Assembly: GCF_004151235.1 (NCBI RefSeq)
Contig: NZ_JUIV01000002.1
Location: 124,001-188,000, forward strand
Direction of reading: 5' to 3'
DNA length: 64,000 bases
Source of the DNA: Flavobacterium anhuiense
GTDB taxonomy: Bacteria; Bacteroidota; Bacteroidia; Flavobacteriales; Flavobacteriaceae
Positions 27,831 through 55,939 of the stretch are shown piece by piece. The position numbers and the translations under genes are program-made. Numbering within the stretch: position 1 is the stretch's first letter; each line of letters begins with the position of its first letter. The notes under the pieces were generated by a model. It had not been told where the DNA came from. It saw only the letters and a list, made by a program, of their open reading frames with translations, and searched no databases.

Positions 27831-27872
27831 AGGTTCTGAGATGCTAAGGTTCTAAGTTTTTTACTGCGGAAG

Positions 27873-27933: not shown

Positions 27934-28271
27934 TTTTAAAAGCAATTATCTAATTACCACATTCTCTAATTTTCTAATTGTTTTTTTAGAAGCAGAAATC
28001 CCTCGTTTTCAGAAGACGTGACATTCCTGCCATCCGCTATATCTTTTCCCTGCTAAAGGAGCAGGAAAAAGGATGCCGCTTCTGTCAGGGCTAGCGAGAA
28101 AATATCTTTTTCATAAGATTTTAACAAGTCTTCTTTCAATGGTGCCTTTTCGAACTCTTTTAAAACTTCAGTTAATAGGGGATGCTTCAATTTTCTTAGC
28201 GACCTTTGCGCAAAACCTTCGCGAACTTTGCGGTTAAATCTCGACCAATAAGTAATTATCTAATTATCCAA
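27934..28271. repeat. Non-coding stretch made of degenerate intergenic repeats
   Basis: Includes a hairpin around 28040-28075 (CTTTTCCCTGCT with AGCAGGAAAAAG) and, at 28197-28237, GCGACCTTTGCGCAAAACC ... AACTTTGCGGTTAAA, the family also found at 56636-56960. No credible reading frame; the frame open upstream of pth crosses the promoter and is rejected. Confidence 0.6.
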
Positions 28272-29076: not shown

Positions 29077-29688
29077 ATGGCTTTTGAATTACCACAATTA
29101 CCTTATGCATACGATGCATTAGAACCACATATTGATGCACGTACAATGGAAATCCATCATACAAAGCACCACAACGCATATACTACAAATCTTAACGCAG
29201 CTATTGCTGGAACAGATTTAGAGGGAAAAACTATCGAAAATATTCTAATCAACTTAGACAAATCTAACGCTGCAGTTCGTAACAATGGTGGAGGTTTCTA
29301 CAACCACAATTTATTCTGGACTGTAATGTCTCCAAACGGAGGAGGTTTGCCAACAGGCGATTTATTAGCTGCAATTGAGTCTTCTTTTGGATCATTTGAA
29401 GAATTTAAAGCAAAATTTGCTAAAGCTGGAGCAACACAATTCGGTTCTGGATGGGCTTGGCTAACAGTTCAAAAAGGTGGAAAATTAGAAGTTGTAGGTA
29501 CTCCAAATCAAGATAATCCATTAATGCCAGAAGTTGCTGGTAACGGTGGAACTCCAATCTTAGGAATGGATGTTTGGGAGCACGCTTACTACTTAAACTA
29601 CCAAAATAGAAGACCAGATTATATTGAAGCTTTCTTCAATGTAATCAACTGGACAGAAGTTGCTAGAAGATTTGCTTTAGAGAAATAA
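29077..29688 (+). CDS. sod: Superoxide dismutase, Fe/Mn family
   Basis: 203 residues, no signal peptide, cytoplasmic. Metal ligands: His27 in EIHHTKHH, His in [11 protein letters not shown], and Asp and His in [13 protein letters not shown]. The combination GGFYNH and PNQDNPLMP resembles manganese-type enzymes more than the iron type, so Mn or cambialistic use is likely; metal choice cannot be proven from sequence. TAAATTTG at 29033-29040 is a probable -7 element. A terminator follows the gene. Confidence 0.96.
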
Positions 29689-29692
29689 GAAA

Positions 29693-29787
29693 ATAGAGCA
29701 TAGAATACAGAAAAAAGACGAGCACCAAATGTTCGTCTTTTTTTTTGTGCTCAATTTTTGGTCTTTATTCTGTATTCTATGCTCTAT
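29693..29787. repeat. 18-bp inverted repeat framing the sod terminator
   Basis: ATAGAGCATAGAATACAG at 29693-29710 and its exact complement at 29770-29787 surround the sod terminator hairpin, so the transcript end could fold into a long nested stem. Confidence 0.8.
29711..29746 (+). terminator. Intrinsic terminator after sod
   Basis: AAAAAAGACGA and TCGTCTTTTTT, loop of 11 bases, followed by more T. Confidence 0.92.
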
Positions 29788-29813
29788 ATTCTATGTTCTA
29801 AAAAAAAGAAAAT

Positions 29814-29883
29814 AAAAAAGGCGGAATTTCTTCCACCTTTTTTGCCCCAAATCTACCATAAACTAACCTACTAATGTTATGGT
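29814..29883 (-). ncRNA. Putative small RNA gene, tandem copy 3 of 3 (in transcription direction)
   Basis: Minus-strand unit of about 70 nt. It begins ACCATAA, loops through CATTAGTAGGTTAGT and closes with TTATGGT. A linker AGATTTGGGGCAAAAAA leads to GGTGGAA-GAAA-TTCCGCC and a T run (an intrinsic terminator). TAAATTTA at 29888-29895 stands where the -7 box stands in the strongest copy. The whole unit recurs at 29996-30065 and 30179-30249. Transcription is inferred. Confidence 0.6.
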
Positions 29884-29995
29884 CCAGTAAATTTATGGCA
29901 GGAATTTTTATAAAGGAAAAATTTCAGATGAAAAGCAATTATATTCGATAAAATACAGTTAACTAATTGTTTTACAGTAAATTACAATATTACAT

Positions 29996-30065
29996 AAAAA
30001 AGGCGGAAGTTACTCCGCCTTTTTTGCCCCAAATCTACCATAAACTAACCTACTAATGTTATGGT
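29996..30065 (-). ncRNA. Putative small RNA gene, tandem copy 2 of 3
   Basis: Same plan as the copy at 29814: hairpin ACCATAA...TTATGGT, linker, terminator GGCGGAG-TAAC-TTCCGCC and T run. The terminator loop and stem differ from the other copies (loop TAAC instead of GAAA), while the linker AGATTTGGGGCAAAAAA is unchanged. TACATTTA (30070-30077) is the -7-like element. Confidence 0.6.
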
Positions 30066-30178
30066 TCAGTAAATGTATGGCAGTTATTTTTGTAACGGAA
30101 AAATTTTAGATGAAAGGTAAGTATATCCGATGAAGAGATATAATTGGCTGTTTATAAATAGTTTGAGTTTATTTCAAT

Positions 30179-30249
30179 AAAAAAGGTGGAATTTCTTCCA
30201 CCCTTTTTGCCCCAAATCTACCATAAACTTAACCTACTAATGTTATGGT
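30179..30249 (-). ncRNA. Putative small RNA gene, tandem copy 1 of 3, with the best promoter
   Basis: 71 nt on the minus strand. Promoter: TTG (plus-strand CAA at 30282-30284), 20 bp, TACTTTTG (30254-30261), then ACCATAA about 5 bp later. The body is the same two-hairpin form, with terminator GGTGGAA-GAAA-TTCCACC and a T run. It starts 101 bp past the purF stop on the same strand. No other terminator lies between, so it may also end the purF transcript. Confidence 0.65.
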
Positions 30250-30349
30250 ATCTCAAAAGTATTGTAGCTTTTCAATTTTACCAAAGAAACAGGATGAACG
30301 GCAAAAAAAACCGATGAAATGCACAATTTAACCTTTTGTTAGTATTTTA

Positions 30350-32248
30350 TTAATAAGCTCGAGCGTCTTTTCCTTCATAAAAATTCATGAAAGCACGATT
30401 TACAACTCTATTTCCACCAGGAGTTGGGTAATCTCCGGTAAAGTACCAATCACCTAAATTTTTAGGACATGCTTTGTGTAAATCTTCTACTGTTTGGAAG
30501 ATGATTTTTACTTCAGCATTGATTTCTGGTGAGCTTAACATTTCTGCAATTTTATCTGAGATTTCTTCGTCACTGAATTGATCGTAGATTGCTGTAACAT
30601 AATTAACAACGTCTTTGTCTGCGAAATTTTCTTGAGCTTTACATTTAGCATAAACTTCGTCTACAATATGGTATAAGTTTCTTTCTTTTAATAAAGCAAG
30701 CGCTGCTCTAAAAGCAACTAAACCTTCTAGCTTTGCCATATCGATTCCGTAACAATCAGGGTAACGGATTTGTGGAGCAGATGAAACGATTACAATACGT
30801 TTTGGTTTTAAACGATCCATCATTTTAATGATGCTCATTTTCAATGTAGTACCACGAACGATACTATCGTCTATAATTACCAAGTTATCCTCTGGTTTGA
30901 TTACACCGTAAGTAACATCGTAGACGTGAGCCACTAAATCGTCACGGCTGCTGTCTTCAGTAATAAAAGTTCTAAGTTTAGCATCTTTAATAGCTACTTT
31001 CTCTGTACGTATTTTTACAGATAAAAGCTCCTGAAGTGTTTCTGCAGTTAATGTATTTCTATTTTCTAGAATATAATTGTTTTTTCTCTGATTTAAGAAA
31101 TCCTGAGCAGCTTCAACTAAACCATAGAATGATGTTTCGGCTGTATTCGGAATATAAGAGAAAACAGTGTTGTCTGTGTCGCTATCAATTGCTTTAAGAA
31201 CAGCAGGTAAAATAAATTTTCCTAAATTTTTACGTTCTTGATAAATTTCAGCATCACTTCCTCTTGAAAAATAGATTCTTTCGAAAGAACAAGCTTTTAA
31301 AGTAGTTGGTTCCAAGATTTGGTTCATGGTAACATTACCATTTTTCTTGATAATTAATGCATTTCCTGGATTGATTTCCTGAACACTTTCAAAAGGAACA
31401 TTGAATACAGTTTGAATAACTGGTCTTTCAGAAGCTACCACAACAACTTCGTCATCTTGGTAATAATAAGCTGGACGAATTCCGGCTGGATCTCTAAAAA
31501 CAAATGCATCACCGTGGCCTAATAAACCAGCCATAGCATAACCTCCGTCTAAATTTTTAGCTGAACGAGCTAATATTTTAGCAATATCCAAGCGTTCCGC
31601 AATTACTGGAGAAGCTTCTCTTTTTGAATAGCCTTCAGCTTTACAATCTTGGTATAGTTGCATTACTTCTTTGTCTAAGAAGTGACCGATTTTTTCCATT
31701 ACTGTAACAGTATCAGCCATTTCTTTTGGGTGTTGCCCTAATTCAACCAAGTTTTCGAAAAGTTCTTTAACATTTGTCATGTTAAAGTTTCCTGCCAAAA
31801 TCAGGTTACGGTGCATCCAGTTGCTTTGACGCAGGAATGGGTGAACGCTTTCGATGCTGTTTTTTCCAAAAGTTCCGTAACGAACGTGACCTAAAAACAA
31901 TTCTCCAACATAAGGAATATTTGCTTTTAGCTCTTTCATGTTGTCTCCCAATTCTGGATGTGCTTTTAACTCCTCGCTGATTCTTTCATTGATTTGTTTA
32001 AAAACATCTTGTATGGGTTGTGCGTGATTAGAGCGAACTCTACTGATGTAGCGCTGCCCTGGATCAACATCAAATTTAATGCTCGCAAAACCAGCACCGT
32101 CTTGTCCGCGGTTGTGCTGTTTTTCCATCATTAAATACATCTTCTGGATTCCGTAGAAAGCAGTTCCGTATTTTTCTTTATAATATTCAAGCGGTTTAAG
32201 TAGTCTAACTAAAGCTATCCCACATTCGTGTTTTAAAGCGTCGCTCAT
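30350..32248 (-). CDS. purF: Amidophosphoribosyltransferase (PurF-type), long form
   Basis: 632 residues, about 130 longer than the E. coli enzyme. First committed step of purine synthesis (PRPP plus glutamine to phosphoribosylamine). The N-terminal glutaminase domain begins after a short propeptide: MSDALKHE, then Cys9 (HECGIALVR), the nucleophile after cleavage. NRGQDGAGFAS and FLGHVRYGTFG follow. The phosphoribosyltransferase domain carries IYFSRGSDAEIYQERKNLG and the PRPP loop VIIDDSIVRGTTL. The C-terminal extension (from about residue 500) is Glu-rich and helical. I see no defect in either active site. The PfkB kinase gene lies upstream on the same strand. Confidence 0.93.
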   Translation of the reverse strand: MSDALKHECGIALVRLLKPLEYYKEKYGTAFYGIQKMYLMMEKQHNRGQDGAGFASIKFDVDPGQRYISRVRSNHAQPIQDVFKQINERISEELKAHPELGDNMKELKANIPYVGELFLGHVRYGTFGKNSIESVHPFLRQSNWMHRNLILAGNFNMTNVKELFENLVELGQHPKEMADTVTVMEKIGHFLDKEVMQLYQDCKAEGYSKREASPVIAERLDIAKILARSAKNLDGGYAMAGLLGHGDAFVFRDPAGIRPAYYYQDDEVVVVASERPVIQTVFNVPFESVQEINPGNALIIKKNGNVTMNQILEPTTLKACSFERIYFSRGSDAEIYQERKNLGKFILPAVLKAIDSDTDNTVFSYIPNTAETSFYGLVEAAQDFLNQRKNNYILENRNTLTAETLQELLSVKIRTEKVAIKDAKLRTFITEDSSRDDLVAHVYDVTYGVIKPEDNLVIIDDSIVRGTTLKMSIIKMMDRLKPKRIVIVSSAPQIRYPDCYGIDMAKLEGLVAFRAALALLKERNLYHIVDEVYAKCKAQENFADKDVVNYVTAIYDQFSDEEISDKIAEMLSSPEINAEVKIIFQTVEDLHKACPKNLGDWYFTGDYPTPGGNRVVNRAFMNFYEGKDARAY

Positions 32249-33473: not shown

Positions 33474-33815
33474 CTATCTTATTTTTTTAAATGAGGAAGA
33501 TTTTCGTTTTCCACTTAAAACGCCAAGAATTGTAATGTGATAATTTTTAACTTTAAATACAATTAACCAAGTTTTATAAGTTGCTTCTCTGTAAATTTTG
33601 GATTTTGTTGGAAGATTTTCACATTCAGAATAAATTAAGGGATTCTCAATAATTTTATTCATTGTTTTGTTTATTCCATTACCAATTTTAATAGCATTTA
33701 AAGGTTGGTGCTTTTCGAAAGCGATATAATCGACAATCTCTTCTAAGTTTTGGAAATAATTCTCGGAAATATCTAACGTATATTGTTTTGTATCTTCTGT
33801 TTTTTTTCTTCCCAT
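33474..33815 (-). CDS. ParE/RelE-superfamily toxin-like protein
   Basis: 113 residues. The segment YTLDISENYFQNLEEIVDYIAFEKHQPLNAIKIGNGIN, read here in two parts around IVDY, is the N-terminal helix pair of ParE toxins. KIYREATYKTWLIVFKVKNYHITILGVLSGKRK is the C-terminal beta-sheet with the typical Y..W..V pattern and terminal basic residues. The first dozen residues (MGRKKTEDTKQ) lie over the end of the upstream antitoxin gene, a 43-base overlap. ParE toxins target gyrase and RelE toxins cleave mRNA; which applies is unknown. Confidence 0.72.
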   Translation of the reverse strand: MGRKKTEDTKQYTLDISENYFQNLEEIVDYIAFEKHQPLNAIKIGNGINKTMNKIIENPLIYSECENLPTKSKIYREATYKTWLIVFKVKNYHITILGVLSGKRKSSSFKKIR

Positions 33816-34027
33816 TTCTCATTAAACTTTTCTAAAGACATTGTTTTGGATTTTTCAGCATTTTCAATCCACTTAACAAAGTCTTCTTTGGACAAATTAC
33901 TTTCAATTTGATCAACTTCATTTTCGAAATCAATCGATACTTTCAATGATTTTCCAACATAGTTTTTTGGAATTTCAAATGAAAGATTGACAATTTTGTC
34001 CTTAGGAGTAATGGTTTTTTGTATCAT
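33773..34027 (-). CDS. Putative antitoxin paired with the ParE/RelE-like toxin
   Basis: 84 residues, rich in Lys and Glu. The N-terminal half is beta-like (TITPKDKIVNLSFEIPKNYVGKSLKVSIDFE) and the C-terminal half helical and charged (NLSKEDFVKWIENAEKSKTMSLEKFNEKWEEKKQ), as in antitoxins whose C-terminus wraps the toxin. It precedes the toxin gene and overlaps it by 43 bases, a common antitoxin-first layout. No named DNA-binding motif is recognised. Confidence 0.65.
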   Translation of the reverse strand: MIQKTITPKDKIVNLSFEIPKNYVGKSLKVSIDFENEVDQIESNLSKEDFVKWIENAEKSKTMSLEKFNEKWEEKKQKIQNNIR

Positions 34028-55821: not shown

Positions 55822-55939
55822 AAAGAAGTACTTTATCGGCTTTCTAAGTAATTCATGGTCAGAATAAAAGCTAACTAAAAGAAAATCAGTATCTTTAATG
55901 TGAGTTTTTTAATAGGAGCATTAATTTTATTCAAAAATC

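Follow-up and report, generated by a model that had tools for sequence, protein, structure and literature searches.

The window analyzed here is the whole 64,000-nucleotide stretch of Flavobacterium anhuiense DNA. Between two genes that we take, from their protein sequences, to be purF and sodA, a first-pass annotation had placed three tandem small-RNA-like genes on the minus strand. We located them where it had described them, as units of 70–72 nt at 30249–30178, 30065–29995, and 29883–29813, spaced 182–184 bp apart. The features of the locus are as follows.

30350..32248, minus strand: purF, conserved upstream neighbor on the same strand as the units (synteny by tblastn)
30254..30261, minus strand: −7 box TACTTTTG of copy 1 (sequence)
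30178..30249, minus strand: small RNA copy 1, with hairpin, linker, and terminator (98.6 bits with the covariance model; fold)
30209..30219, minus strand: copy 1 linker AGATTTGGGGC, expected to be single-stranded and to do the pairing (alignment-invariant; unpaired in fold)
30070..30077, minus strand: −7 box TACATTTA of copy 2 (sequence)
29995..30065, minus strand: small RNA copy 2 (91.6 bits with the covariance model; fold)
30026..30036, minus strand: linker of copy 2 (alignment-invariant; unpaired in fold)
29888..29895, minus strand: −7 box TAAATTTA of copy 3 (sequence)
29813..29883, minus strand: small RNA copy 3 (93.3 bits with the covariance model; fold)
29844..29854, minus strand: linker of copy 3 (alignment-invariant; unpaired in fold)
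29077..29688, plus strand: sodA, conserved convergent neighbor (synteny by tblastn)

Each unit consists of a TAnnTTT(G/A) box, 4 nt, a hairpin, an unpaired linker, and a 13-bp terminator hairpin flanked by A/T. Folded alone, every unit forms both hairpins (z −4.8, −4.2, and −4.8), and none of 200 shuffles of each was equally stable. The 5′ end lies inside the hairpin in all three window copies and in six of seven further relatives that were folded; for L026, the remaining one, an alternative fold is nearly equal. The claimed upstream element at a constant distance was borne out, as each box stands 4 nt before its unit, and so was the full promoter of one copy, TTG-N20-TACTTTTG at copy 1. The terminator stems drift by paired changes among the three window copies, again as reported. 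Because Flavobacterium sigma-A promoters place the box at −12 to −5, according to the available portion of PMC9723704, transcription is predicted to start at the hairpin’s first base. A generic terminator scan picked up copy 3, plus the copy 1 stem on the opposite strand, rather than all three. Between copy 3 and sodA lies a 44-nt imperfect inverted repeat (window 29676–29804) that is perhaps a shared terminator.

The units fit no Rfam family: of the four matches to Rfam 15 in the window, a search that includes the suggested Flavo-1 and 6S models, none falls on the units at the gathering score. The best sub-threshold match on them, STnc40, reaches 32.7 bits against a gathering score of 45 and aligns with the terminator, and no FopS hit appears for the units in this search. 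A Flavo-1 element (RF01705; 70.1 bits), distinct from the units, does lie in the window at 28019–28096 on the minus strand, flanked by genes resembling rplY and pth. Elsewhere in the window, a long near-perfect hairpin at 27870–27936 matches microRNA models by chance. We also rejected a coding function, in agreement with the first-pass annotation: among 147 units, GATTT is preceded by one A in 118 and by two in 29, so a reading frame is not kept. We found no description of this RNA in the literature, and its transcript may already stand in published Flavobacterium RNA-seq tables. The available parts of the sources give 85 new RNAs (Rfp1–89) from F. psychrophilum RNA-seq (PMC9723704) and an RNA-seq-based small RNA list for F. 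columnare (PMC5395568).

Conservation, range, and genomic place

A covariance model built from 11 equal-length units (R2) matched 173 of 199 Flavobacteriaceae genomes and 172 of 198 genera (E≤1e-3), three of the 173 genomes weakly (7.4e-7, 2.2e-4, and 4.4e-4). R2 replaced a first model, R1, in which unequal terminator lengths had prevented base pairs from being detected. The genus-wide blastn check that had been proposed, run with the unit, matched 20 of 40 relatives, every one in Flavobacterium. Judged by PurF, the closest named relatives are F. nitrogenifigens and F. tistrianum (97–99%), which places the window in that genus. Searching genome contigs with an 18-base linker pattern returned at least 119 stretches, and the matches listed are mostly named Flavobacteriaceae, such as Maribacter, Zobellia, Kordia, Aquimarina, Muricauda, and Robiginitalea.

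Matches outside the family were few and low-scoring. An order-level search matched 40 of 196 genomes, eight of them outside the family with at most 37 bits; the six of these that were read proved to be terminators without the core (G276 and G323 were left out). At the phylum level 18 of 148 genomes matched, including seven outside the family at 29–32 bits that were left unread. A match in G097 lacks the core and was discarded. Among the matches read, none outside Flavobacteriaceae appears convincing.

Within the family the genomic place is strongly conserved. Of the at least 119 named stretches, four lack a full unit by pattern and two (L093 and L095) carry the candidate sponge RNA described below, leaving 113 loci. 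Among these listed matches purF precedes and sodA follows the array at 84 loci, purF alone is present at 17, and sodA alone at seven. Both are absent at five (L043, L103, L051, L122, and L147), for some because the stretch ends. Arrays hold one to six copies, with six in L050 and G040; G229 has seven model matches in its genome, which were not read individually.

Of 147 excised units, 146 retain the core GTAGGT..GATTTGGGG, which contains the invariant linker GATTTGGGG, and the near-invariant stretch spans ~30 nt with stem and loop included. Of 196 copies, 182 have the promoter box TAnnTTT(G/A), and 152 have it at −12. The compensatory terminator change beside a near-invariant first hairpin and linker, previously noted in the window, extends across 127 distinct relatives: two-sided changes occur at 12 of 13 terminator pairs, while in the 5′ hairpin 4 of 11 pairs show one such change each. 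Terminator stems vary freely yet pair in 99.5% of cells, and in slid controls the paired fraction falls from 97.8% to 60.2% or less; since the alignment had been fitted to the model’s structure, these counts are biased toward it.

These data bear on what kind of element the units are. Since the units lie behind purF and each finishes in a terminator hairpin, they could be tandem terminators or 3′-UTR elements of purF with no function as free RNA. We consider this very improbable: every unit comes with a conserved promoter box and an upstream operator (described below) of its own, the hairpin and linker are kept in sequence and the terminator in shape only, and a further copy, in L161, stands away from purF. 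A mobile or REP-like repeat, which copy number differing between species might suggest, is hardly credible. The first-pass annotation had named random placement without promoter conservation as the mark of such a repeat; the exact linker is confined to the purF–sodA locus within the F. anhuiense genome, 108 of the 113 loci among the matches listed keep purF and/or sodA, and the box is conserved as given above. The comparative data instead support the original reading, in which these are small-RNA genes in tandem and every one carries a promoter box and a terminator of its own.

A predicted LytTR operator and its candidate regulators

Upstream of most copies, at −69/−49, we identified a direct repeat, TGCATTTCATCG-N8-TGCnnTTCATC, with a period of 20. 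This operator, like the family-wide range and the candidate regulator and targets considered below, is new relative to the first-pass annotation. The window holds three predicted instances.

30293..30319, minus strand: putative LytTR operator upstream of copy 1, a period-20 direct repeat (matches the pattern exactly; scores 46.0 with the profile)
30109..30135, minus strand: putative LytTR operator upstream of copy 2 (departs from the pattern at one position; scores 33.9 with the profile)
29927..29953, minus strand: putative LytTR operator upstream of copy 3 (matches the pattern exactly; scores 40.1 with the profile)

Of 196 upstream regions (129 stretches), 126 contain a TTYRTC repeat of period 20 that matches in 11 or more of its 12 letters, and in 112 of these it starts at −69/−70. 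When periods from 10 to 40 were scanned, the next best were 13 (37 regions) and 11 (32), and shuffles gave ~3. An operator profile from 117 sites, TGC(A)(T)TTCATCG-N8-TGCnnTTCATC, scores above 9 in 182 of 196 upstream regions versus 0.14–0.2% of random 150-base stretches of the window – a comparison in which the profile is derived from the very promoters it scores. The operator is absent (score ≤5) in 14 of the 196 copies. The available text of PMC4847170 describes LytTR sites as two 9–11-nt repeats with an 11–13-nt spacer and gives GGCATTTCAT repeats as bound by Escherichia coli YpdB. By that partial description (PMC4847170) the repeat has the layout of a LytTR site, as its half-site includes GCATTTCAT and a period of 20 equals an 11-nt spacer.

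Not all copies share this upstream arrangement. In 7 of the 13 arrays displayed, the last copy has the linker GATTTGGGA(C/T)G, a different conserved promoter, and no operator; the variant last-copy linker reads GATTTGGGACG or GATTTGGGATG in L050, L046, L098, L041, L064, L111, and L144. In the second copies of L022, L029, L057, L070, and L090, a conserved element, CTCATTTGCCTA-CATTCCAATATA, replaces the LytTR-type repeat. Because of these other promoters and upstream elements, arrays may combine several inputs.

Across the F. anhuiense genome the pattern TTTYRTCG-N13-TTYRTC has seven exact sites, two of which are those of small RNA copies 1 and 3. Allowing one mismatch gave 73 sites versus 109 for a reversed control, so most one-mismatch sites are chance. 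One exact site lies 170–200 bp before a REC-LytTR gene that heads a peptide/TPR-kinase cassette, and this gene is alone among the 18 LytTR genes of F. anhuiense in having a 12/12 site at that position. Its orthologs keep the site in 5 of 5 cases found among six genus genomes searched (scores of 28.8–37.2 at those of G008, G010, G004, and G013); G012 has no ortholog. We rejected this protein as regulator of the whole family, because the gene is missing at 1e-30 from 15 of 18 further genomes and its relatives in other genera lack the operator site.

The cassette has features of its own. After its LytTR gene a small exported precursor is encoded (L279:3796-4080, L282:3143-3457, L281:5886-6194, L283:3082-3321, and L238:3037-3435), which in three of these five genomes consists of tandem repeats: four of VDLVGGASAGGNKK, three around DGGGSAGGGRKQD, and five of EIGGRSQVPSF. 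A TPR histidine kinase and then a response regulator come next, and cassettes of other genera mostly have a small lipoprotein-like ORF in the precursor’s position. The precursors had no Pfam match (one scanned) and no NCBIfam match over the cut-off (five scanned). The arrangement looks like a peptide-pheromone system. The receiver of the cassette LytTR protein (L238:3457-4275, alignment A4) has Glu in the genus, and mostly Asn in other genera, at the position of the phospho-accepting Asp; by our reading it would be a pseudo-receiver.

A second LytTR gene is conspicuous in streamlined genomes. This gene is syntenic, adjoining priA in 11 of 11 stretches and rpsF in 10 of 11, and the three of its products that were checked contain both a receiver and a LytTR domain by Pfam. 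Among small genomes that bear the RNA it is present in 9 of 10, broken in G198, and among small genomes without the RNA 5 of 5 encode no LytTR protein at all (Fisher p 0.002, ignoring kinship and genome reduction). Small RNA operators of these small genomes score 30.3 in G082, 28.2 in G146, 23.7 in G117, and 21.4 in G057, and are weak in G190 (9.7), G123 (9.3), and G079 (5.0). In G180 the operator is weak and shifted (13.4), although its LytTR protein is the closest (57%). In G179 the operator is absent and the RNA degenerate while the LytTR gene is intact, G197 has neither operator nor any LytTR gene, and in G198 (L296 and L315) the LytTR gene lies in two frames, the small RNA core has decayed, and the operator is lost. 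The apparent fit between the state of the gene and that of the operator is thus good but not perfect. Overall, the small RNA array is likely activated by a LytTR regulator, and we lean toward the rpsF–priA LytTR protein as that activator.

Candidate targets and a candidate sponge RNA

Candidate targets were sought in 344 kb of the F. anhuiense genome, overlaps included, a sample that is biased because its stretches were chosen by pattern hits. Within it, seven genes start within 420 bp of an operator scoring above 12: the cassette LytTR gene, genes for a CAP-domain lipoprotein, for an exported protein that we presume from its sequence to be LRR-like, and for a laminin-G protein with a weak Por-secretion tail, two genes for further proteins, and a seventh gene that lies in the window at 55832. 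Pairing of the linker with the leader of the CAP-domain lipoprotein (−21.7 kcal/mol) was the best of 223 gene starts, and no shuffle of 500 equaled it. Three of the seven operator-linked leaders ranked within the top 7% of 212 starts, which 9 of 300 shuffled linkers equaled. The mean rank of the seven is unremarkable, 38 of 300 shuffled linkers being as low; a six-leader version that omits the window site gave 2 of 300. Overall, pairing between the linker and operator-linked leaders is suggestive. Near-perfect linker complements elsewhere in the F. anhuiense genome are not at obvious leaders, and we did not retain them as targets. An 18-nt complement in an apparent 3′ UTR (L068) was likewise set aside; it may be chance, since 154 of 1000 shuffles pair as well as its flank does.

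Two stretches outside the arrays may encode an RNA that pairs with the small RNA itself.

L095:7249-7560, Psychroserpens sp. SPM9: candidate sponge, operator-driven stretch with two small RNA-complementary sites
L093:4864-5160, Flavobacteriales bacterium 33_180_T64: candidate sponge, operator-driven stretch with two small RNA-complementary sites

Both come from related species and were fetched with the linker pattern, so one long complement in each is present by selection. Beyond selection, each has an operator on the right strand (35.2 in L095 and 31.5 in L093) and a second complementary site 40–43 nt off, and operator and second site are conserved between the two. Among 18 places with a complement outside the small RNA in all the DNA analyzed, only these two stretches have an operator within 400 bp. 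The L095 stretch contains no frame of 60 aa and folds with z −5.0, ending in a hairpin followed by T’s; this hairpin is evident in the fold but missing from the output of the terminator scan. Cofolding of the candidate sponge with the small RNA of another Psychroserpens record gained about 28–31 kcal/mol. The case for a sponge rests on the operator and second site, because the flanks pair no better than shuffles (242 of 1000 in L095 and 385 of 1000 in L093). We regard these stretches as a candidate sponge RNA for the small RNA family.

Proposed mechanism and known counterparts

Building on the unit, its promoter box, and the operator at a fixed distance, we propose a mechanism for these RNAs. 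Each ~71-nt unit would be transcribed from its own predicted promoter and ended by its own terminator hairpin. A LytTR response regulator, putatively the product of the gene between rpsF and priA, would bind the direct repeat and switch the small RNA on; in Flavobacterium the cassette LytTR gene, with the same operator upstream, would belong to the regulon. The exposed GAUUUGGGG linker would then pair with mRNA leaders and repress surface and secreted proteins that the same regulator activates, forming an incoherent feed-forward loop. Tandem copies would raise dosage, or add inputs where a copy has another promoter. Action by base pairing seems probable, and repression of co-activated surface proteins stands at slightly under even chances. 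As a whole, the reading of a LytTR-controlled, trans-acting small RNA family that pairs with mRNA leaders and has its own predicted promoter, terminator, and operator is the one we favor, with reservations.

Two alternatives concern the partners of the RNA rather than its existence. The RNA could titrate an RNA-binding protein in the manner of a CsrB-like sponge instead of pairing with mRNAs. Near-invariance over ~30 nt exceeds what a pairing seed needs, and multiplication to as many as six copies would multiply binding sites; candidate complementary sites stand beside operators, and no candidate protein was found, leaving this reading unlikely. It is also possible, if somewhat unlikely, that the operator is bound by another LytTR protein or by an unrelated repeat-binding factor. 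The mismatches between LytTR gene and operator in G179, G180, G079, G190, and G123 would fit such a factor, as would the operator-less second promoter type at the last copy of arrays. Against it stand the site preceding LytTR genes in the genus, the RNA-less small genomes devoid of LytTR proteins, and the resemblance of the repeat to the YpdB half-site as given in the available part of PMC4847170. More speculative, and in our judgment improbable, is an extension of the base-pairing mechanism into a signaling hub spanning the family. An ancestral LytTR protein would drive the array, its surface-protein targets, and in some lineages a dedicated sponge; Flavobacterium would have captured the cassette with its tandem-repeat exported peptide precursor and periplasmic-TPR histidine kinase, making the array the output of a peptide-pheromone system and a Bacteroidota counterpart of the Vibrio Qrr circuit.

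Several known systems share parts of this design. The Qrr small RNAs of Vibrio are several near-identical RNAs under a response regulator, expressed from a sigma-54 promoter with LuxO sites, and QrrX is their sponge RNA. The units resemble them in being near-identical small RNAs under a predicted response regulator with a candidate sponge; unlike Qrr, they have a TAnnTTTG-type box and LytTR-type direct repeats, with no quorum signal evident. In the AgrA–RNAIII pair, a LytTR protein drives a regulatory RNA, as is predicted here. The direct repeat with half-site GCATTTCAT is shared with the YpdB sites, as far as PMC4847170 was available. The period of 20 sets the present system apart from both, and its RNA is unrelated to RNAIII. 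Flavo-1 is likewise a small structured flavobacterial RNA of the same window; its sequence and fold differ, and its model matches 28019–28096 only.

Among Bacteroidota, the Bacteroides FopS RNAs are also multicopy paralogs with an intrinsic terminator and a conserved single-stranded seed, in the available text of PMC11697453. The same partial source gives them a single-stranded 5′ stretch and 12–15 copies per genome, whereas the units have a 5′ hairpin, one tandem array, and a LytTR-type operator. The Rfp RNAs of F. psychrophilum are, in the accessible part of PMC9723704, similarly conserved in Flavobacterium, and one of them regulates proteases. Compared by that description, Rfp18 pairs via a third stem-loop, whereas the unit has two (PMC9723704).

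Flavobacterial small RNAs are barely known beyond lists. Here, an RNA gene absent from Rfam 15 is kept across most of Flavobacteriaceae, more strictly than the flanks of its neighbors, and brings with it regulator, operator, target, and sponge candidates that are all testable in laboratory-tractable species. If the proposed mechanism is true, it would give access to how surface and secreted proteins are controlled after transcription, and perhaps to cell–cell signaling, in a bacterial family that ranks among the most abundant in water and soil. Farther along the window, two overlapping small ORFs of 113 and 84 aa (33474–34027, minus strand) presumably represent a pair resembling ParE/RelE-type toxin–antitoxin genes.
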